In this document: positions 1 through 37,274 of the stretch, piece after piece
How positions within the stretch are numbered: position 1 is the first letter of the stretch
Layout: every line of letters starts with the position of its first letter
From: a virus
Direction: 5' to 3' (one strand)
Virus record (IMG/VR): IMGVR_UViG_3300021378_000071
Coordinates: 1-37,274 of that record
Length of the DNA: 37,274 nt
The notes under the pieces: model-generated
The model's input: the letters and a program-made list of their open reading frames with translations, nothing else
Database searches by the model: none
What the model was told of the DNA's origin: nothing
Program-made: the position numbers and the translations under genes

Positions 1-147
1 CCATTATTAAAACAAACCATATTGAGTCGACGAGTGATGAGGCGCCCCTCACGCTGGTTCTCTGAACCATAGAGTCATCTGAATCTACTGTTAAACCTTG
101 TTTGTTTAAATGATGGATGGTAAGCGTGCAGCAGTTTAACCTGGCGC
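1..147. repeat. terminal overlap, left copy
   Basis: These 147 bases recur as a direct repeat at 37128-37274 with substitutions at 19 (a; t at 37146) and 143 (g; a at 37270). Both copies lie inside the primase-helicase reading frame, and joining them keeps that frame open. The simplest reading is that the contig is circular and the two ends overlap. A T7-like packaged terminal repeat is less likely because such repeats normally lie outside genes. Confidence 0.9.
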
Positions 148-1627
148 TTATGTTTGCACAGTAAGATCCCCAAAGCTGCCCCGCCTCATTACTACTAGAA
201 ACATTACCAGTGGTAAATGCTTGAAGCGGATCAAAACAAACTAACTTTAAATCTGGTATAACTTGCAGCTCCTCAACCAAATCTTGTGCAAGCTGAGTAA
301 CACCTTCTTCCTTTAACAATATCATTGGTTCTTTTTGTTCAGGCACTGGAAAAATATAAACATCATATTCACTTTTAAACCTGTTACCGTTTGGATCTAA
401 TAGATCTAGTCTTCTATGTATCTCTGGAATATCATCTTCAGCTGAAAACAAAATCACGTTTCCATGTTCCTTTACATCTTTACCCCACCAACGACCACCA
501 CCACACGCTATTCTTAATGCTAACTGAATTACACTCAAAGACTTTCCAACTCCACCAGACGCCGCTAATAGTCCAGGCTTACCCATTGGTATTAAACCAT
601 CTACTAAAAACTTCTGTGGCTCTGGCTTACCGACTAGGTTTCTGATCGCATACTTTTGTATGCCTAACTTGTGTTCCATGAGTTCAGCTTTGACTTTGTC
701 TAAACCATGTTTAAGATACAGGTCATTATAATCACCGCGCTCGCTAGGCAGACGCACGGCTACGTTAGGTATTGCAGCTGCACATTCCTGGGCTTTCTTT
801 TCACCCACGCCGTTATCATCGTGGTCTAGGGCTAAAATAATTCTAGCACCCGTTAACTTGCGAAATTTAGAGACTGCATCCAATGTAAAATTGGCACTAA
901 ACACGCAAGCCACGGGAATTTGGGTAGCTTCATATATTGTTGCAGATGTTGAGTAACCTTCAGCTACTATCAACCTTTCACAATTAGCTAATTCATTAAA
1001 TGTAATTCCAATAAGAAAAACATTACCTTTGATTTCTGATGCGGAGGCAAACTTTTTACCCCCTTTTTTATCTATGTACTGTATAGATCTGATGGCGCCT
1101 GTAGTAGAATACACGGGAACAATTAAACACCCGTTAGATTGTTTCAACCCATAATTTTTAACTTTTTTATTCGTGAGATAATCATGTTCAATAACATTTT
1201 GACATTTTTCAAATTTTTCCCCTACCTCTATAGCCACCTCATCTTGCCGAGCTTGTCTCTTAATTTTCTCTTCCTTCGCAGCCTTTTCCATTTTCTTCTG
1301 TAAGGCTTCTCTATCTACCTGGCTTAATGTAGACGTATCAACAGAACTCCACCTTCCCTCAAATCCTGTTTTCCAGTTGCCAAAAGTTGCAAAGTGATGG
1401 CCGTTTAGGCTGTTGACTACATACCATCCTGACCTGGCACCACCCAAATCTGGTTTCATGCCTGGTAATGCTGTCGGAACTCTAACTATTGTTCCAGATG
1501 CTTCCAAATGATTTACCTGCAAGCCTTGCGCCTGCATCTCATTTATTAAATCGTTTATTGTTTTGGTTTTTTTATCAGTTGTTTCAAATAATATGTTTCT
1601 ATCGTTGCAGTATTTTTTTAGATCCAT
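1..1627 (-). CDS. Toprim primase / RepA-type helicase, N-terminal 542 residues
   Basis: This is a bifunctional primase-helicase that would prime and unwind DNA at the phage fork. The start is ATG at 1627; the frame runs off base 1 and continues at the right end of the window (stop 36925), giving 609 residues in the circular genome. Residues about 67-95 carry the GWYVV...FGNWKTG pattern that precedes Toprim_3 domains in plasmid-type primases. The Toprim residues are E223 (VAEGYS) and D268/D270 (ALDHDD). A RecA/RepA-type ATPase follows, with Walker A ASGGVGKS (356-363), SAED (395-398), Walker B VCFDP (D466) and IHHLNK (504-509). No N-terminal zinc ribbon is visible. The start overlaps the upstream gene by 29 bases. 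No DNA polymerase gene accompanies it, so the host replicase is presumably recruited. Confidence 0.88.
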   Translation of the reverse strand, partial: MDLKKYCNDRNILFETTDKKTKTINDLINEMQAQGLQVNHLEASGTIVRVPTALPGMKPDLGGARSGWYVVNSLNGHHFATFGNWKTGFEGRWSSVDTSTLSQVDREALQKKMEKAAKEEKIKRQARQDEVAIEVGEKFEKCQNVIEHDYLTNKKVKNYGLKQSNGCLIVPVYSTTGAIRSIQYIDKKGGKKFASASEIKGNVFLIGITFNELANCERLIVAEGYSTSATIYEATQIPVACVFSANFTLDAVSKFRKLTGARIILALDHDDNGVGEKKAQECAAAIPNVAVRLPSERGDYNDLYLKHGLDKVKAELMEHKLGIQKYAIRNLVGKPEPQKFLVDGLIPMGKPGLLAASGGVGKSLSVIQLALRIACGGGRWWGKDVKEHGNVILFSAEDDIPEIHRRLDLLDPNGNRFKSEYDVYIFPVPEQKEPMILLKEEGVTQLAQDLVEELQVIPDLKLVCFDPLQAFTTGNVSSSNEAGQLWGSYCANISARLNCCTLTIHHLNKQGLTVDSDDSMVQRTSVRGASSLVDSIWFVLIM

Positions 1628-1994
1628 TTAAAGCTCTCTCATCATCTTCCTCGGCTCTGGCGTTAGCCCAGTTTAGATATTCTCTTATAATTTTAACAAA
1701 TACTTTTTTTCTATCTTCACGTTTCCATTTATGTAATGGATTTTCTTTGTTATCAATTAATAATTTTTTATATAATTCTTTGGTGGATGCTATAGCGTAC
1801 TCTGTACCGATGTCATTAAGTTGCGCCTTGTTAGGGAGGCGTTCGCCTTCACCTAGTTTTTTTAAATGAGCCATACAGCATGCTCCAATCCAGTGTTCTT
1901 TATCTTGGTATAAAAATGGCCCCGCTGGGGATTTACAATATCCGCACAGCGTGGGCCTATCCTCTTTAAGATTAAAACGGCGCGTCTTCGTCAT
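1599..1994 (-). CDS. small zinc-finger-like protein in replication operon
   Basis: The 131-residue product starts with a basic stretch and then CGYCKSPAG (C18, C21). A HWIGACC segment follows near residues 34-40. Together these could form a CxxC...H/CC zinc site. The C-terminal half is charged and probably helical. It sits between the SSB-like gene and the primase-helicase, overlapping the first by 23 bases and the second by 29, so it should be co-translated with the replication proteins. I do not recognise the family. A DNA- or protein-binding accessory role at the fork is only inferred from position. Confidence 0.7.
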   Translation of the reverse strand: MTKTRRFNLKEDRPTLCGYCKSPAGPFLYQDKEHWIGACCMAHLKKLGEGERLPNKAQLNDIGTEYAIASTKELYKKLLIDNKENPLHKWKREDRKKVFVKIIREYLNWANARAEEDDERALNGSKKILQR

Positions 1995-2469
1995 CTAAAG
2001 TTGTTGATCCCATTTTTTCCAGATCAGCAGCTGAAGGTGATGCCTCTATAGGCTTCTCGCTTACCGTTTTTTGTTTTTTATCAGTAGGTTCCCATGTTCG
2101 TCCCCAGTCCTGGTCAACTTCAAAAAAGGTACTATCTTTTTTTTGTTTAATAACCGCAGAAACACTTTTACCCATGAAGGCGCTTTCAGTGTCACTAGGT
2201 AGCTCTTTCAAACCCATTGCTTTACACATTGCCAGTAAAGATTTCAATCCATTCTGCGCATGTTTTTCTTCTTGATGCCTTGTAGTGAATAAAGCATCAA
2301 CAGTTTGGCCAGTATCTTCTACTTCGAACTTTGCGCTATAACCTTCCCAGTTTGGATTGTTATCACTAGTTAATTCTTTTTCACCTTGAAAGTGCAAAAC
2401 GTATCTTCCAGGTTTTAAATTAACTCTGCCGTCAGTATCGGCTTCTACTTTATAATTACTAAAATCCAT
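1972..2469 (-). CDS. single-stranded DNA-binding-like protein
   Basis: The protein is 165 residues long. The first 115 residues look like an all-beta domain, followed by a low-complexity linker rich in K, S and P. It ends in an acidic tip closing with DDEDAPF. That tail closely resembles the DDDIPF-type tip with which bacterial and phage SSBs dock partner proteins. A good Shine-Dalgarno (AAAGGAG) lies 7 bases before the ATG. It is placed between a Sak4-like recombinase and the primase-helicase, where an SSB is expected. The OB fold is inferred, not visible as a motif. A DUF669-like family is the alternative; these are also thought to bind ssDNA. Confidence 0.65.
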   Translation of the reverse strand: MDFSNYKVEADTDGRVNLKPGRYVLHFQGEKELTSDNNPNWEGYSAKFEVEDTGQTVDALFTTRHQEEKHAQNGLKSLLAMCKAMGLKELPSDTESAFMGKSVSAVIKQKKDSTFFEVDQDWGRTWEPTDKKQKTVSEKPIEASPSAADLEKMGSTTLDDEDAPF

Positions 2470-4574: not shown

Positions 4575-4892
4575 ATGAGTATAGACAACATAACACCAGA
4601 AGAATGGGACCAATCTATAGATAGACTTGCAACCAATAACCAGGTAGGTGGTGAACATTATAACAAATTAAGAATACAGCCTATTGATTATATTTATGCA
4701 AACAATTTATCTTATAACTTGGGAAGTTGCTTAAAGTATATAACTAGAAGCAAGGGTGACAGTCAAGATAAAATAAAAGATCTATTAAAAGCAAAACACT
4801 TTATAGATCTTGAGTTAGAAATGGTGCATGGAGTAGACAATGATGGTAACAACATTGGGGCTTACTCCGTGGAGGTAACAATAAATAAGTGA
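4575..4892 (+). CDS. DUF3310 protein (SaV-like)
   Basis: The 105-residue product contains VGGEHY near residue 24 followed by QPIDYIYANNL and GSCLKYITR, the hallmark of DUF3310. This family is common in tailed phages and sometimes labelled nucleotide kinase, although its activity is not firmly established. AAAAGGAAA lies before the ATG. It reads divergently from the replication operon and is followed 7 bases later by another small gene, forming a two-gene rightward unit. A role in early nucleotide metabolism is the usual guess. Confidence 0.8.
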   Translation: MSIDNITPEEWDQSIDRLATNNQVGGEHYNKLRIQPIDYIYANNLSYNLGSCLKYITRSKGDSQDKIKDLLKAKHFIDLELEMVHGVDNDGNNIGAYSVEVTINK

Positions 4893-33420: not shown

Positions 33421-33849
33421 ATGGCTTACATTAACGCAGAAGAGGTAAAGGCAATAAGGAACGCCTTAAAGAAAAAGTTTCCAGATTATAAATTCAGTGT
33501 GACAAAAGATAGCGGAGGACTTGCCGTCAATGTTGCAATCATGGAAGGACCAGCATTTAAAGATGAAGAGGATAAATATAACGTGTATGAAGATAAATAC
33601 ACTCCTTTAGATCTTAATACTGGACATCATCAAATAAACCATGTCTGGTGCAAAGATCATTACCCAAACAACGGTGAGTTCTTTGAAGAGATAACCAAGA
33701 TAATCAAAACTGCTCCTTTTGAGGCAGGAGTTGGTGATCTTTGGTTTGATGAGAGTGACGCCATGATTGATTACTTTCATACAGCTTACTACTTTCACAT
33801 TGAGGTTGGTAAGTGGGACAAACATTTCAAAATTAAGGAGGTAGCATAA
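33421..33849 (+). CDS. LPD29-like early protein
   Basis: A 142-residue protein opening MAYINAEEVKAIRNALKKKFPDYKFSV, with VNVAIMEGPA and HHQINHVW in the middle and EITKIIKTA near 95. This arrangement recalls the LPD29 domain (a domain of large polyvalent proteins also found alone in phages and plasmids), tentatively. Function of the domain is not known; a role against host defence has been suggested for some relatives. It has a consensus ribosome site and follows a TTGACA promoter, so it should be among the earliest and strongest expressed proteins. The stop overlaps the next ATG. Confidence 0.72.
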   Translation: MAYINAEEVKAIRNALKKKFPDYKFSVTKDSGGLAVNVAIMEGPAFKDEEDKYNVYEDKYTPLDLNTGHHQINHVWCKDHYPNNGEFFEEITKIIKTAPFEAGVGDLWFDESDAMIDYFHTAYYFHIEVGKWDKHFKIKEVA

Positions 33850-34004
33850 TGAACCCGATTGGAGGATATGCATTATTTTTTGCAATAGATAGACTTGAAA
33901 TGACAATTGAAAACATCAAGTTTCAAAAAGGCCAGGTCTTTGACGATGATCTTGAGAAGCTTGAAATGATACTTGAGGCGTTAAAAAACAAGGAGGATAA
34001 ATAA
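33849..34004 (+). CDS. 51-residue acidic helical protein
   Basis: Starts at a TAATG junction (33849) and ends at a TAATG junction with the next gene (34004). The product is a helical, mainly acidic peptide (FFAIDRLEMTIENIKFQKG, DDDLEKLEMILEALK). No family is recognised. Double coupling within an operon of similar tiny genes supports it as real. Its size fits an early host-takeover protein. Confidence 0.6.
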   Translation: MNPIGGYALFFAIDRLEMTIENIKFQKGQVFDDDLEKLEMILEALKNKEDK

Positions 34005-34264
34005 TGGAATATAAATTCTACATAACAGGCAGCCATGGATACCTGGTTGTCAAACACAAAGAACTAGAAGAGCTAGGCATAGCGAGCAAGATCAGCCCGT
34101 TCAGCTACAAGATGGGTAACAAGGTTTACCTGGAGGAAGACTGTGACGCCTATATGTTTATGAATACTTACAAAGAGGTCAAAGAAGATCCAATGGTTAT
34201 TGACTGGATACATCAAGAAATACCAAAAGACAAAATGGCTAGATATGTGGAGGGAATTGCATGA
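34004..34264 (+). CDS. small early protein, unknown
   Basis: An 86-residue protein (EYKFYITGSHGYLVVKHKELEELGI then KMGNKVYLEEDCDAYMFMN), looking like a small mixed alpha/beta domain. I have seen similar proteins in marine phages without known function. AAGGAGGATAA gives a strong ribosome site that lies in the end of the previous gene. It overlaps the nucleotidase gene as ATGA. Confidence 0.7.
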   Translation: MEYKFYITGSHGYLVVKHKELEELGIASKISPFSYKMGNKVYLEEDCDAYMFMNTYKEVKEDPMVIDWIHQEIPKDKMARYVEGIA

Positions 34265-34728
34265 AGATATTTGTGGACATGGACGGAGTCTTAGCTGACT
34301 TCATCAAAGGAGTAGAAGGGCCAAAGTTTTTAAACGGCCCTTTAGATCCGAACATGTATGACTTTAGAAAAAAGGAACTAAGTGATAAAGGTTTGTTTTT
34401 AGAGTTACCAGTGTTACCAGGTACTCCAGCTCTAATTAAATACATCAAGGACACTGGCCTGTACTGGGAAATCCTAACAGCAACAGGTGATGTCAATAGA
34501 CAAAGAGTTGCAGCTGATAAGAACTTTTGGATTGGTAAACATATTGATCCAGGAGTGCTTGTAACATGCACCATTAAAGGCAAACATAAAGCAGCTTATG
34601 CCAGGGAGGATCACATATTAATTGATGATAGAGCGGACAACATCAACGCCTGGATACAAGCTGGCGGTATTGGGATCTTACATAAAGACGCCCAGGACAC
34701 TATAAAAAAACTGAAATTAATAGTGTAA
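34261..34728 (+). CDS. 5'(3')-deoxyribonucleotidase, HAD family
   Basis: A 155-residue HAD hydrolase. FVDMDGVLADF gives the nucleophile D6 and the acid D8; ILTATG is motif II and ILIDDRADNINAW the acidic metal-binding motif IV. The cap region ELPVLPGTPALIKYI is typical of the NT5C group that dephosphorylates deoxynucleotides. The enzyme would recycle or rebalance dNMP pools during infection. Length is close to phage relatives. The start overlaps the previous stop as ATGA. A promoter follows the stop by 5 bases, so this gene ends the first early transcription unit. Confidence 0.85.
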   Translation: MKIFVDMDGVLADFIKGVEGPKFLNGPLDPNMYDFRKKELSDKGLFLELPVLPGTPALIKYIKDTGLYWEILTATGDVNRQRVAADKNFWIGKHIDPGVLVTCTIKGKHKAAYAREDHILIDDRADNINAWIQAGGIGILHKDAQDTIKKLKLIV

Positions 34729-34733
34729 AAGAG

Positions 34734-34761
34734 TAGACATGTGCATATATAATGTTATAAT
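34734..34761 (+). promoter_or_regulatory. extended -10 rightward promoter
   Basis: TAGACA (34734-34739) and TATAAT (34756-34761) are 16 bases apart, and TG at 34753-34754 gives a TGnTATAAT extended -10. It stands between the nucleotidase gene and the next gene, whose ribosome site (AAGGAGG) starts 34786. Confidence 0.8.
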
Positions 34762-34797
34762 TATAGGGTAATGAGGTTGTTAAATAAGGAGGAAAAA

Positions 34798-35091
34798 ATG
34801 ACTAAGAAACACAAATGGGATGATCCAAGATATGTTGGCGGTATTGATACTGGTGACAGGATCTATTACAAGGGTGACATGGCCAACATACCTGGTTGGG
34901 GAACTGTTACCAAGGTTGTGCCTTGTGAGTATTACCACAAGACAATAACCATTGAGTTAGAAGATGGAAGAGTTCAGAATGTCAACCCTTACATGTTGGG
35001 TTGCCAGACCGAGGTTGATAAACCAATTTACAACCAGGGTGGTTTACAAAGACATGTGATGGCTTACAAAAAAACATGGGAGGTAGCGTAA
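34798..35091 (+). CDS. small beta-barrel-like early protein
   Basis: A 97-residue protein from the ATG at 34798, which has AAGGAGG 6 bases upstream (an earlier ATG at 34771 would lie within the leader). VGGIDTGDRIYYKGDMANIPGWGTVTKVV and TITIELEDGRVQNVNPYML look like an SH3-like small beta barrel. It is common in marine phage early regions. No function is known. It is the first gene after a strong promoter and overlaps the next gene by one base. Confidence 0.75.
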   Translation: MTKKHKWDDPRYVGGIDTGDRIYYKGDMANIPGWGTVTKVVPCEYYHKTITIELEDGRVQNVNPYMLGCQTEVDKPIYNQGGLQRHVMAYKKTWEVA

Positions 35092-35258
35092 TGAGAGAGT
35101 ATAAAGTTGTTTTTGGGAAAAACCCAATGAGACCAAAGGTTGTATATGTAAATGCAAACAATGCTGGTGAGGCTATAAAGTTTGTTATGGACACATACAA
35201 CGTCTATAGAAACATGATACACATGACAACTTGGGTAAATACAAAGGAGGTAGCGTAG
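35091..35258 (+). CDS. 55-residue early protein
   Basis: The ATG at 35091 overlaps the previous stop (TAATG), with GGGAGG upstream. The protein has EYKVVFGKNPMRPKVVYVNANNAGEAIKFVM, a beta-alpha arrangement seen in small phage proteins with a short VxAxNxxEAI helix. It is otherwise unassigned. A longer frame beginning at 35076 is less likely because it overlaps the previous gene more. It is followed by a GTG-started mini-gene (TAGTG overlap). Confidence 0.6.
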   Translation: MREYKVVFGKNPMRPKVVYVNANNAGEAIKFVMDTYNVYRNMIHMTTWVNTKEVA

Positions 35259-35347
35259 TGAACTTATTAAAAAAACTATTTAGAAAACCAGCCAGGCGTA
35301 AAGCTTGGCATGGTTCATATTTGATTAATCATTTCTTAAAAAACTAA
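35258..35347 (+). CDS. 29-residue basic peptide, GTG start
   Basis: Starts with GTG inside the upstream stop (TAGTG) and ends at TAATG with the next gene; AAGGAGG lies 8 bases before. The peptide is basic and amphipathic (LLKKLFRKPARRKAWHG). It could be an early antihost peptide, but this is guessed from size and position. Confidence 0.45.
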   Translation: MNLLKKLFRKPARRKAWHGSYLINHFLKN

Positions 35348-35451
35348 TGAGCAACACAATAGGAATAATAATAATAATCTCATTTATGGCCGTGTGTATG
35401 CACGGCGCATACCTAATAATTAAAGACAAGGAGCAAGAGAAAGATGAATAA
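35347..35451 (+). CDS. 34-residue single-span membrane peptide
   Basis: The ATG at 35347 overlaps the previous stop. Residues 5-25 (IGIIIIISFMAVCMHGAYLII) form one membrane helix; the tail is acidic and lysine-rich. The end overlaps the next gene by 8 bases. An inner-membrane early peptide could act on superinfection or host membrane proteins. No homologue is recognised. Confidence 0.5.
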   Translation: MSNTIGIIIIISFMAVCMHGAYLIIKDKEQEKDE

Positions 35452-35668
35452 TTTAATAGATACCAAAATGTCTGAATGGCATAAACAAGGCGATGTAACA
35501 AGCATGTTCAAATTTGCAACTATGTTATATATAACAGCTCCACAATCCCAAGAAGATAAACTTGATGAACTGAAAGATTGTGCAGAGGGCCTGGCATCTG
35601 ACATGAATGACATAGAATTAGCAAGAGCTAAAAAAGAAATAGAGGAAATACTAAACCATGAAGATTGA
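35444..35668 (+). CDS. 74-residue helical early protein
   Basis: A helical, acidic protein (SEWHKQGDVTSMFKFATML, then SQEDKLDELKDCAEGLASDM and LARAKKEIEEIL). The ATG has GGAGCAAGAGAAAG before it. It overlaps both neighbours by 8 and 11 bases. No known domain. Possibly a small adaptor or inhibitor of a host protein, by analogy with other tiny early phage proteins. Confidence 0.6.
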   Translation: MNNLIDTKMSEWHKQGDVTSMFKFATMLYITAPQSQEDKLDELKDCAEGLASDMNDIELARAKKEIEEILNHED

Positions 35669-35753
35669 CAGGCGCAAGATCCCAAAGCATTTAAGACATT
35701 TACCAGATAAAAATCTAATTGCATTAATAGAACTATTTAAGGGGAGACTATGA
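35658..35753 (+). CDS. 31-residue basic peptide
   Basis: Starts at ATG 35658 inside the previous gene and ends with TGA inside the next ATG (ATGA). The peptide (KIDRRKIPKHLRHLPDKN then LIALIELF) is basic with one hydrophobic helix. Tight overlaps support translation. Unknown function. Confidence 0.45.
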   Translation: MKIDRRKIPKHLRHLPDKNLIALIELFKGRL

Positions 35754-35935
35754 CATTTGACCAGGCGCTAGGAAAACTAGCAGCACATAAAGAAGATAAC
35801 AATATACCAGGTGAATTACCTTTTATATCCAGGAAGGAATCTAAATCAAACGATTCTAAAGACGTCTGGTTGCTTTTTGACACAAATGGTATCAAGGTAG
35901 CCATGGTAGATAATCATGGCGTCTACGGGCTTTAG
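35750..35935 (+). CDS. 61-residue early protein
   Basis: The ATG overlaps the previous stop and is preceded by AAGGGGAGA. The protein has TFDQALGKLAAHKEDNNI then PFISRKESK and KDVWLLFDTNGIKVAMVDNHG, a small mixed fold. No family known. Its 3' end is one base from the next ATG. Confidence 0.58.
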   Translation: MTFDQALGKLAAHKEDNNIPGELPFISRKESKSNDSKDVWLLFDTNGIKVAMVDNHGVYGL

Positions 35936-35936
35936 A

Positions 35937-36116
35937 ATGAACACAGAAGACATAATGAAACAAATGAGAGAAAAATACGGCTTGAAAAACATTTCTGGCT
36001 GGAAAAATAAGTTAACACCAGAAAAACTATTAAAAATAGTATCCAGGGATGACAGAGCAATTCTTAACCAAGCGTTTGCAAAAGATAAACGCTATCAACA
36101 CATTAACCAGGAGTAA
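35937..36116 (+). CDS. 59-residue early protein
   Basis: Taken from the ATG at 35937 (MNTEDIMKQMREKYGL); a frame from 35916 overlaps the previous gene and is less likely. Contents are LTPEKLLKIVSRDDRAILNQAFAKDKRY, a charged helical protein. No strong ribosome site, so re-initiation after the adjacent stop is likely. Function unknown. Confidence 0.55.
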   Translation: MNTEDIMKQMREKYGLKNISGWKNKLTPEKLLKIVSRDDRAILNQAFAKDKRYQHINQE

Positions 36117-36119
36117 CTA

Positions 36120-36248
36120 ATGGCGGGCAAAGGCAGCAGACCAAGGCCAATTCCAAATAGAAAGAAATATGAGTCAGAATTTGATAGAATATTTGGTAAA
36201 GGTAAAAAGAAAAAAGAACCAGGTAAAAACAAAGATAAGACGGGTTGA
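36120..36248 (+). CDS. 42-residue basic protein (MGKGSRPRPIPN type)
   Basis: The last rightward gene, ATG at 36120 with AGGAG six bases upstream. The start MAGKGSRPRPIPN and FDRIFGKGKKKK are familiar from numerous marine phage small proteins. The C-terminus is lysine-rich. It ends one base inside the outer arm of the hairpin (36247). Possibly binds nucleic acid. Function unknown. Confidence 0.65.
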   Translation: MAGKGSRPRPIPNRKKYESEFDRIFGKGKKKKEPGKNKDKTG

Positions 36249-36333
36249 TCTTTTAGATTAATCCATCCACGAGCGCGCACGGGATGCTCCCCCTCCTCAA
36301 CAACCTTCCGTGTGCGTTCACCTACAAAAGATC
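36247..36333. terminator. nested inverted repeat between convergent operons
   Basis: Outer arms GATCTTTT (36247-36254) and AAAAGATC (36326-36333) enclose inner arms CGCGCACGG (36274-36282) and CCGTGTGCG (36308-36316, one wobble). The rightward early genes end at its left edge and the leftward initiator gene ends at 36322. A bidirectional transcription stop is probable, although neither side has a good U-tract. Confidence 0.45.
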
Positions 36334-36756
36334 CACTAAACCAACCAACAAAAAATGCTTCTTCCCAGCAGGCTGAGACTTCCGCAATCTTTTCTGCTCA
36401 CCTTCTAGCACACACCAGACCACCTCTTTTTCAATTAACTCAGTCATAGCTCTTCCAGCAGTCTTCCTATTCACTCCCGTCATTTTTGCATAATAGCTAA
36501 TCGCATCGTGCGAAGACCAGCACTCATATCTCCAACGCTCACAAAGGGACCAGAGAATTAATTTAGCGCTCACGGACAAATCCGTTCTCCCGCACTCGCG
36601 CCTGTACCAATCCCAAACCACTCCCCTGGTTCTTATAAAATCACCCTCGCGTCTTGCTAGCTCTAACGGGACAAAGACTCCCGCTCGCTCCCGCTCGCTC
36701 GTGTGTGCCGTGATCCACCAGTGATCCTTGCTTACAGGTTTAAATCTTTTGTACAT
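36322..36756 (-). CDS. winged-helix replication initiator candidate
   Basis: A 144-residue protein from the ATG at 36756 (a TTG at 36792 would lie in a hairpin). Residues about 58-110 have SVSAKLILWSLCERWRYECWSSHDAISYYAKMTGVNRKTAGRAMTELIEK in form of short pieces: a SAKLILWSL helix, SHDAISYYAKMTGVNRKTAGRAM as recognition HTH, then LIEKEVVW as the wing. This is the usual pattern of phage replication initiators and O-type proteins. Iterons lie 88 bases upstream and the primase-helicase gene just beyond, so it may bind the origin and load the helicase. A transcription regulator is the alternative. Its base composition is richer in G+C than neighbours. Confidence 0.65.
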   Translation of the reverse strand: MYKRFKPVSKDHWWITAHTSERERAGVFVPLELARREGDFIRTRGVVWDWYRRECGRTDLSVSAKLILWSLCERWRYECWSSHDAISYYAKMTGVNRKTAGRAMTELIEKEVVWCVLEGEQKRLRKSQPAGKKHFLLVGLVDLL

Positions 36757-36780
36757 ATTTTTCTCTCTCTCTTGAAAGCT

Positions 36781-36799
36781 GAACCCCCTCAAGGGGTTC
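36781..36799 (-). promoter_or_regulatory. leader hairpin and -10 of the initiator gene
   Basis: GAACCCC and GGGGTTC form a 7-bp stem with a 5-base loop, 24 bases before the initiator ATG. A TATAAT (minus strand, 36826-36821) lies just upstream, and the iterons cover its -35 position. The mRNA leader would start with this hairpin, close to the GAGAGAGAG ribosome site, so it may limit initiator dose. Confidence 0.5.
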
Positions 36800-36843
36800 G
36801 CTTTCTCTATGTATAATTATATTATACGGATATTAGGGAGCTT

Positions 36844-36915
36844 CTTACTATAGTTGTGTCCCTATCTTACTAGAGTTATGTCCCTATCTTACTCAAGGTA
36901 TGTCCCTAACACTCC
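36844..36915. repeat. 22-bp iterons, replication origin candidate
   Basis: Two full tandem units, 36857-36878 and 36879-36900, each start TGTCCCTATCTTACT; a third partial TGTCCCTA starts at 36901, and the 13 bases before (36844-36856) match the end of the unit. The 22-bp period equals two DNA turns. It lies between the initiator candidate and the primase-helicase gene, exactly where an iteron-type origin would be. It also overlaps the -35 region of the initiator promoter. Confidence 0.72.
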
Positions 36916-36924
36916 CTATGGTTA

Positions 36925-37274
36925 TTAAAAATTGTCATATAAATTGTTTGGATCTAATGGTTCATTTAGTGGTTCTAAAACACCGTTGCGTCTGAATAAT
37001 GTCTTAGAGGAATAGTCAACGCCTCCACTGTTGGATTTGACAAGTGCGCCTCTAACCACCGCCATCCTATCGTAAGGCACATGTTGCTCTTCACAAATTC
37101 TTTCACAATCCTCTGCACTTGCCAGGGCCATTATTAAAACAAACCTTATTGAGTCGACGAGTGATGAGGCGCCCCTCACGCTGGTTCTCTGAACCATAGA
37201 GTCATCTGAATCTACTGTTAAACCTTGTTTGTTTAAATGATGGATGGTAAGCGTGCAGCAGTTTAACCTAGCGC
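36925..37274 (-). CDS. Toprim primase / RepA-type helicase, C-terminal end
   Basis: The C-terminal part of the primase-helicase that starts at 1627, ending with TAA at 36925. It carries the RGASSLVDSIRFVLIMAL segment that completes the RepA-like core and then about 65 residues ending in a short LNEPLDPNNLYDNF tail. Residues 494-542 are present twice in the window because of the terminal overlap. The codon at 37146-37144 is AGG (Arg), while the left copy has TGG (Trp) at 19-17. Arginine fits better with a possible arginine finger position, but this is not tested. Confidence 0.85.
   Translation of the reverse strand, partial: ARLNCCTLTIHHLNKQGLTVDSDDSMVQRTSVRGASSLVDSIRFVLIMALASAEDCERICEEQHVPYDRMAVVRGALVKSNSGGVDYSSKTLFRRNGVLEPLNEPLDPNNLYDNF
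37128..37274. repeat. terminal overlap, right copy
   Basis: Direct copy of bases 1-147 with two substitutions. The unique genome unit is therefore 1-37127. See the left copy for how the ends join. Confidence 0.9.

Follow-up and report, generated by a model that had tools for sequence, protein, structure and literature searches.

The replication schemes of plasmid RSF1010 and phage P4 are the closest described to the mechanism proposed here. In RSF1010, RepC acts on iterons, RepA unwinds the DNA, and RepB' primes at the ssi stem-loops (PMC4234260). Iterons are ~17-22 bp in size, and some IncQ plasmids carry only few of them (PMC4980987). The alpha protein of phage P4 is a TOPRIM-type primase fused to a helicase, and the repeats of the P4 origin are read by a winged-helix domain (PMC4234260). 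In phage lambda, the origin sits inside the O gene (PMC7157519); in pRN1, the structure of the origin is conserved but its sequence is not (PMC4234260); and in PLE, the origin and the DNA-binding domain form a module whose parts covary (PMC8263062).

The DNA considered here (the window, i.e., the whole stretch of 37,274 nucleotides of the virus record IMGVR_UViG_3300021378_000071) contains a block at 36774-36920 that, together with the winged-helix gene downstream of it, is probably the replication origin of a phage with its candidate initiator. The features are:

1-1627, minus strand: main part of the primase-helicase gene (Toprim_3, 9.9e-8, and AAA_25, 1.8e-32)
36322-36756, minus strand: candidate initiator, 144 aa, with a winged-helix domain at about residues 41-140 (HTH_36 match)
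36774-36805, minus strand: P2, 13-bp hairpin GAAAGC-GAACCCC(TTGAG)GGGGTTC-A-GCTTTC, in which a single base, the A at 36780, is bulged
36811-36827, minus strand: P1, AT-rich hairpin GTATAAT(ATA)ATTATAC, pairing in 45 distinct sequences
36828-36834, minus strand: AATATCC element (TATATCC in most relatives) between array and P1, conserved upstream of the gene
36843-36864, minus strand: iteron 3 (TAGGGACACAACTATAGTAAGA), Tandem Repeats Finder array
36865-36886, minus strand: iteron 2 (TAGGGACATAACTCTAGTAAGA), Tandem Repeats Finder array
36887-36908, minus strand: iteron 1 (TAGGGACATACCTTGAGTAAGA), Tandem Repeats Finder array
36910-36920, minus strand: degenerate half-site CATAGGGAGTG, about one helical turn before iteron 1
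36925-37127, minus strand: 3' end of the primase-helicase gene, which runs on across the join (complete 609-aa relative at L005 3006-4835)

With the oriV of RSF1010 (IncQ), this locus shares a protein of its own for the repeats, a hexameric helicase of the RepA type, short stem-loops, few iterons and, by inference, the use of the host replicase. It differs in that TOPRIM primase and helicase are united in one protein, that the 144-aa initiator has one detected winged-helix domain and no plasmid match, and that both hairpins are located ≤70 bp from the array, between it and the initiator gene, and in a phage. A TOPRIM primase-helicase and the combination of origin repeats with a winged helix are also found in P4, where, however, the winged helix is the C-terminus of alpha, whereas here it is encoded by a separate gene and the primase-helicase, with a helicase of RepA/AAA_25 type, extends only a little beyond the helicase core. 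A C-terminal winged-helix extension of the P4 alpha type is absent from the primase-helicases of the window's clade. Lambda O and the HTH_36-type replication proteins have in common with the candidate initiator a small winged-helix domain (with weak similarity) and iteron arrays, but the array in the window lies upstream of the gene and the match is below the family cut-off. The precedence of structure over sequence is shared with pRN1, which differs by its single 100-nt stem-loop and its lack of iterons, and the pairing of origin and DNA-binding protein in one module with PLE1, which differs by iterons of ~30 bp and a RepA with a RepA_N domain.

Tandem Repeats Finder reported one strong tandem array in the window, at 36843-36908 (period 22, 3.0 copies, 88% matches, score 97, compared with 49 for the runner-up repeat). 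A preliminary description had proposed an iteron-like array at 36844-36915 beside a winged-helix candidate initiator; its coordinates are within a few bases of those found here, and the HTH_36 gene does adjoin the array. The copies TCTTACTATAGTTGTGTCCCTA, TCTTACTAGAGTTATGTCCCTA and TCTTACTCAAGGTATGTCCCTA are spaced 22 and 22 bp apart, and their core, TAGGGACA on the initiator (minus) strand, is confined to these three units genome-wide. Self-identity at period 22 over the three copies was 0.886, compared with 0.694 for the best value elsewhere in the genome and 0.706 for the best of 100 dinucleotide-preserving shuffles (periods 15-30). The 22-bp repeat array is thereby confirmed as real, and its three direct repeats in constant helical phase are of the size expected for an iteron origin. 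The array is flanked by the 3' end of the primase-helicase gene, with its stop at 36925, on one side and by the initiator gene on the other, and ends 87 bp before the start codon of the latter. In close relatives, the conserved block is bounded upstream by the half-site at 36910-36920, irrespective of which gene precedes the block, and ACCATAGGGAGTG is common to close relatives whose upstream genes differ.

Relatives of the initiator were collected from two scans of viral contigs (90 loci; 80 of the 128 matches of the wider scan were kept) and from a scan of reference genomes (2 loci), which yielded 92 loci. Where upstream DNA was available (~70 loci), the region before the gene has a common anatomy, consisting of array, ATATCC, AT-rich hairpin, bulged hairpin, purine-rich stretch and start codon. 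Across 60 distinct array regions, mean self-identity was highest at lag 22 (0.52), and did not exceed 0.39 at any other lag between 4 and 49 (0.39 at lag 44 and 0.34 at lag 21). Ten representatives of divergent clades, among them L099 and L100 with 51-54% initiator identity, each had a significant best period (p≤0.01 vs their own shuffles) of 22 or, in L064 and L071, of 21. The spacing, on whose conservation in relatives the preliminary description had staked its reading, is thus kept at 21-22 bp across clades. Its expectation of conserved repeat units in homologues holds for period and structure only, the unit TGTCCCTATCTTACT itself being restricted to close relatives. In fact, the units are mutually unrecognisable (TAGGGACATA in the window, the dyad GGACAnnnTGTACC in L021, AACATATCC in L022, CTACAACGAC in L099 and GGGACAAAACTACCC in L100), and what the arrays have in common is two helical turns. 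Such a period would suit a complex of proteins whose binding sites must all face the same side of the helix; cooperative binding is lost in a known plasmid system when two iterons are set a half turn apart (PMC4980987). The orientation of half-sites varies between clades: in the upstream region of L021 (~4790-4880), the 22-bp units are dyads, and in L022-L027 the core has the opposite orientation. L099 (CAJQJC010000020.1) and L100 (NZID01000003.1) are part of MAGs labelled Pelagibacter and Crocinitomicaceae, respectively, which may reflect the binning of phage contigs rather than the host.

Array, hairpins and initiator remain together while the gene upstream changes. The preliminary description had placed the array between initiator and primase-helicase, which is correct for the window but not as a general rule, the end of the primase-helicase being immediately upstream in 21 of 66 distinct relative regions. 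In the others, a short ORF, a C5-methyltransferase, an N6/N4-methyltransferase, a Mom-like or an unclassified protein is encoded there. The slot between primase-helicase and array, empty in the window, thus appears exchangeable and often holds DNA-modification genes, Mom among them (PF25680, 3.5e-37). Slot genes, including Mom and C5- and N6/N4-methyltransferases, are located at:

L013, 4234-4827
L041, 3548-4831
L027, 3139-4317
L057, 146-1432
L078, 3903-4838
L100, 3489-4289

The ATATCC element and the two hairpins had been missed by the preliminary description. ATATCC precedes the initiator gene in every relative with DNA extending that far, mostly at a distance of 73-101 nt from the start codon, and the stretch of ATATCC and P1 beside the repeats is AT-rich. 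Because an alignment of the hairpins with MAFFT misplaces the arms of P1, pairs were counted outward from the loops, sequence by sequence. This procedure takes the best stem of each sequence and therefore leans towards pairing, which does not explain, however, why 12 different arms occur at one fixed place. P1 forms a stem of 7-9 bp in all 45 distinct sequences, its seven loop-proximal pairs being Watson-Crick in 315 of 315 cells with 2-3 pair types per position, and P2 has 12 inner arms and a single bulge in the 3' arm (43 of 45 distinct sequences). The hairpins thus covary, and since L009, L010 and L011 have nearly identical initiators but different P1 stems, the structure is kept while its letters turn over. 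Folded together as single-stranded DNA, P1 and P2 reach -16.4 kcal/mol (z = -7.2). Except for the loop-closing T-G, G-U pairs are nearly absent from the stems (three G-T cells in P2 and none in P1). This scarcity hints at a constraint on DNA rather than on RNA, which, as the sequences are related, is not proof. One weak terminator-like site is present on the plus strand at P2. A leader akin to the put antiterminator of HK022, with its two stem-loops, was also considered; the free drift of the sequence argues against it.

The candidate initiator matches HTH_36 (PF13730), which is a domain family and not a function, with E=2e-6 (27.9 bits; gathering score 25). The same domain was matched in 33 of 36 relatives and was the sole Pfam domain reported. 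A candidate DNA-binding initiator gene adjoins the array in every relative read. Weak matches to 'replication initiation protein' families were obtained with PHROGs (phrog_270, 5e-4). The AlphaFold2 model has a mean pLDDT of 68, and its fold matches are generic for winged-helix proteins, MarR and Fur regulators ranking equally high. Two 'initiator' chains, 4pql and 4pt7 (Z ~6), were given no weight, tied as they are with Fur and RNA polymerase subunits. The window's initiator had no hit to TIGR01610 (phage O protein N-terminal domain); the L100 initiator scored 16.7 bits (E 0.007) against a curated cut-off of 45.5. The initiator had no match in the cultured-phage collection searched, nor any at E≤0.1 when 72,556 plasmid records were searched by tblastn, and Pfam yielded HTH_36 only; it is thus not recognisable as a homologue of RepC of RSF1010/IncQ.

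The enzyme recruited to the origin is most likely the primase-helicase. Its helicase domain matches the structure of RSF1010 RepA (1g8y; E=2.5e-21, hmmsearch with the family profile) and is thus of the RepA-type hexameric class. As the origin at which RepA acts has iterons and stem-loops for priming (PMC4234260), this match was counted in favor of an origin. An AAA_25 primase-helicase was present in 14 of 14 viral records tested, while PolA and PolB matched in 0 of 14, some of which may be fragments. PHROGs revealed neither a polymerase nor an integrase among the window ORFs scanned, several of which have no family, and no reverse transcriptase was found; the earlier claim that the genome carries no DNA polymerase gene therefore agrees with these searches. 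The two contig ends (1-147 and 37128-37274) overlap by 147 bp inside the primase-helicase gene, with two mismatches (19/37146, A/T; 143/37270, G/A), and the gene split by them is a single ORF of 608-615 aa in most relatives read (up to 622 aa among the relatives). A circular genome is plausible because of this overlap and the undivided ORF of the relatives; IMG/VR-style end calling would label the contig linear. An exonuclease, a Sak4-like annealing ATPase and a 165-aa protein (1972-2469, minus strand) are encoded before the primase-helicase on the same strand. The latter is without a family match, and its C-terminus, DDEDAPF, resembles the acidic tip of SSB and is kept in relatives. A cluster of small plus-strand ORFs (33421-36248), opposite to the rest of the genome and mostly without families, includes a deoxyribonucleotidase-like gene (34261-34728; phrog_2643, 9e-31), and a look-alike of its last ORF (36120-36248) is found just upstream of the array in L100. 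GC skew, which had been suggested as a check, has detrended extremes at 31.9 kb and 36.26 kb. Both are switches of gene orientation; as the skew follows gene direction, it is uninformative on the origin and speaks neither for nor against it.

Alteromonas phage PB15, Idiomarinaceae phage 1N2-2 and Salicola phage CGphi29 encode a related Toprim_3/AAA_25 primase-helicase (~25% identity) and no match to the window's initiator. Directly 3' of this gene, each possesses a cluster of half-sites:

PB15, L108 6939-7200: GGTTCA, 13 in 262 bp vs 4 in the other 11.2 kb read
1N2-2, L109 6837-7080: GGTACA, 11 in 244 bp vs 2 in 7.2 kb
CGphi29, L110 6822-6990: GGGACA, 6 in 169 bp vs 5 in 11.1 kb

No origin is annotated in the stretches read. 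When PB15 and 1N2-2 are aligned, GGTTCA and GGTACA occupy corresponding positions, the core letter differing in concert, as expected if one protein reads every site. Like the locus in the window, these clusters lie by a related primase-helicase and hold foldable hairpins; unlike it, their half-sites occur in both orientations rather than as 22-bp tandem units. In addition, the primase-helicases of the three phages have a C-terminal extension that is absent from the window's clade. The simplest reading of these sequences is that origin recognition would reside in the helicase protein in PB15, 1N2-2 and CGphi29, and in a separate protein here. A comparison of the initiator with the C-terminal extension of PB15-type primase-helicases gave an hhalign probability of 0.3%, both profiles being very shallow; it speaks neither for nor against a split of one and the same domain.

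From these observations, we infer that several copies of the 144-aa initiator would line up along one face of the helix by binding to the 22-bp iterons, and that the complex would open the AT-rich stretch of ATATCC and P1, where the TOPRIM/AAA_25 primase-helicase could be loaded. The exposed strand may fold into P1 and P2, which would mark, by their structure, where the helicase is loaded or primers are made; priming would take place at or near the hairpins, and the primers would be extended by the host replicase. That the hairpins are read by their shape is less certain than the origin function itself. The conserved period, the covariation of P1 and P2, the cohesion of the module, the primase-helicase in all 14 records, with a PolA or PolB match in none, and the clusters of the cultured phages were counted for an origin. 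Counted against it were the generic fold matches, the weak PHROG matches (E ~5e-4) and the lack of an independent signal in GC skew. Likewise counted against it was that an array placed before the gene of a DNA-binding protein is typical of operators, too.

Self-repression is common among iteron Rep proteins, and in many iteron plasmids the origin doubles as the operator. An array serving as both origin and autoregulatory operator, which would be a special case of the origin proposed here and does not exclude it, is accordingly conceivable, if rather unlikely; the array does end close to the start codon. Yet neither a conserved promoter over the array nor an inverted operator copy of the iteron was found. 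The preliminary description had the array cover the initiator's own promoter, which is not borne out: between 36240 and 36960, no sigma-70-like site was found (1.0 expected), and the TATAAT of the window falls within the P1 hairpin and is not conserved in most relatives. Since the initiator gene is preceded by recombination and primase genes running in the same direction, it may be expressed by read-through. Overall, that description is thus partly supported.

Less probable still is that the region is operator and leader only, in which case the winged-helix protein would repress itself via the repeats, the hairpins would act in the 5' leader RNA (on translation, stability or termination), and replication would start elsewhere. 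In its favor, every relative read has array and hairpins immediately before the winged-helix gene, many repressors are among the fold matches of the initiator, and leader RNAs typically have hairpins ahead of a start codon. This is opposed by the missing sigma-70-like promoter, by the scarcity of G-U pairs, by Rfam (no match at the gathering threshold and one chance hit, E 3.2), and by PB15, 1N2-2 and CGphi29, whose clusters lie 3' of the primase-helicase without an adjoining regulator gene of such kind. Finally, a partition site, with the repeats as a centromere read by a TubR-like protein, is highly improbable, for although winged-helix proteins of the TubR type do bind iterated sites and TubR chain 6tey is among the generic Foldseek hits of the initiator, no tubulin-like, ParA-like or ParM-like family or integrase was found for the ORFs scanned (several being without family), and the constant company of the primase-helicase would be left unexplained.

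With a replication origin as the preferred reading, its overall kind is already known, while the candidate initiator family appears undescribed, with an origin conserved in spacing and structure and not in sequence. Literature searches returned no description of such an origin. We suggest, tentatively and with more doubt than confidence, that it represents a class of phage origin not yet described, with a small stand-alone winged-helix initiator that would read the origin (the job of the C-terminal part of the primase-helicase in related phages) and twin hairpins that would be recognised by shape, period and pairing being kept while the sequence drifts. For a group of uncultured marine phages, the locus provides a candidate origin that is mapped and open to testing, and a candidate initiator family without match in the cultured-phage and plasmid collections searched. 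The 21-22-bp lag, ATATCC, P1 and P2 are signatures by which origins may be found in viral contigs. As a natural experiment in origin evolution, these phages would illustrate how repeat sequences turn over wholly while spacing and hairpin pairing stay, and PB15, 1N2-2 and CGphi29, set beside the window, suggest that either the helicase protein or a separate protein can recognise the origin.
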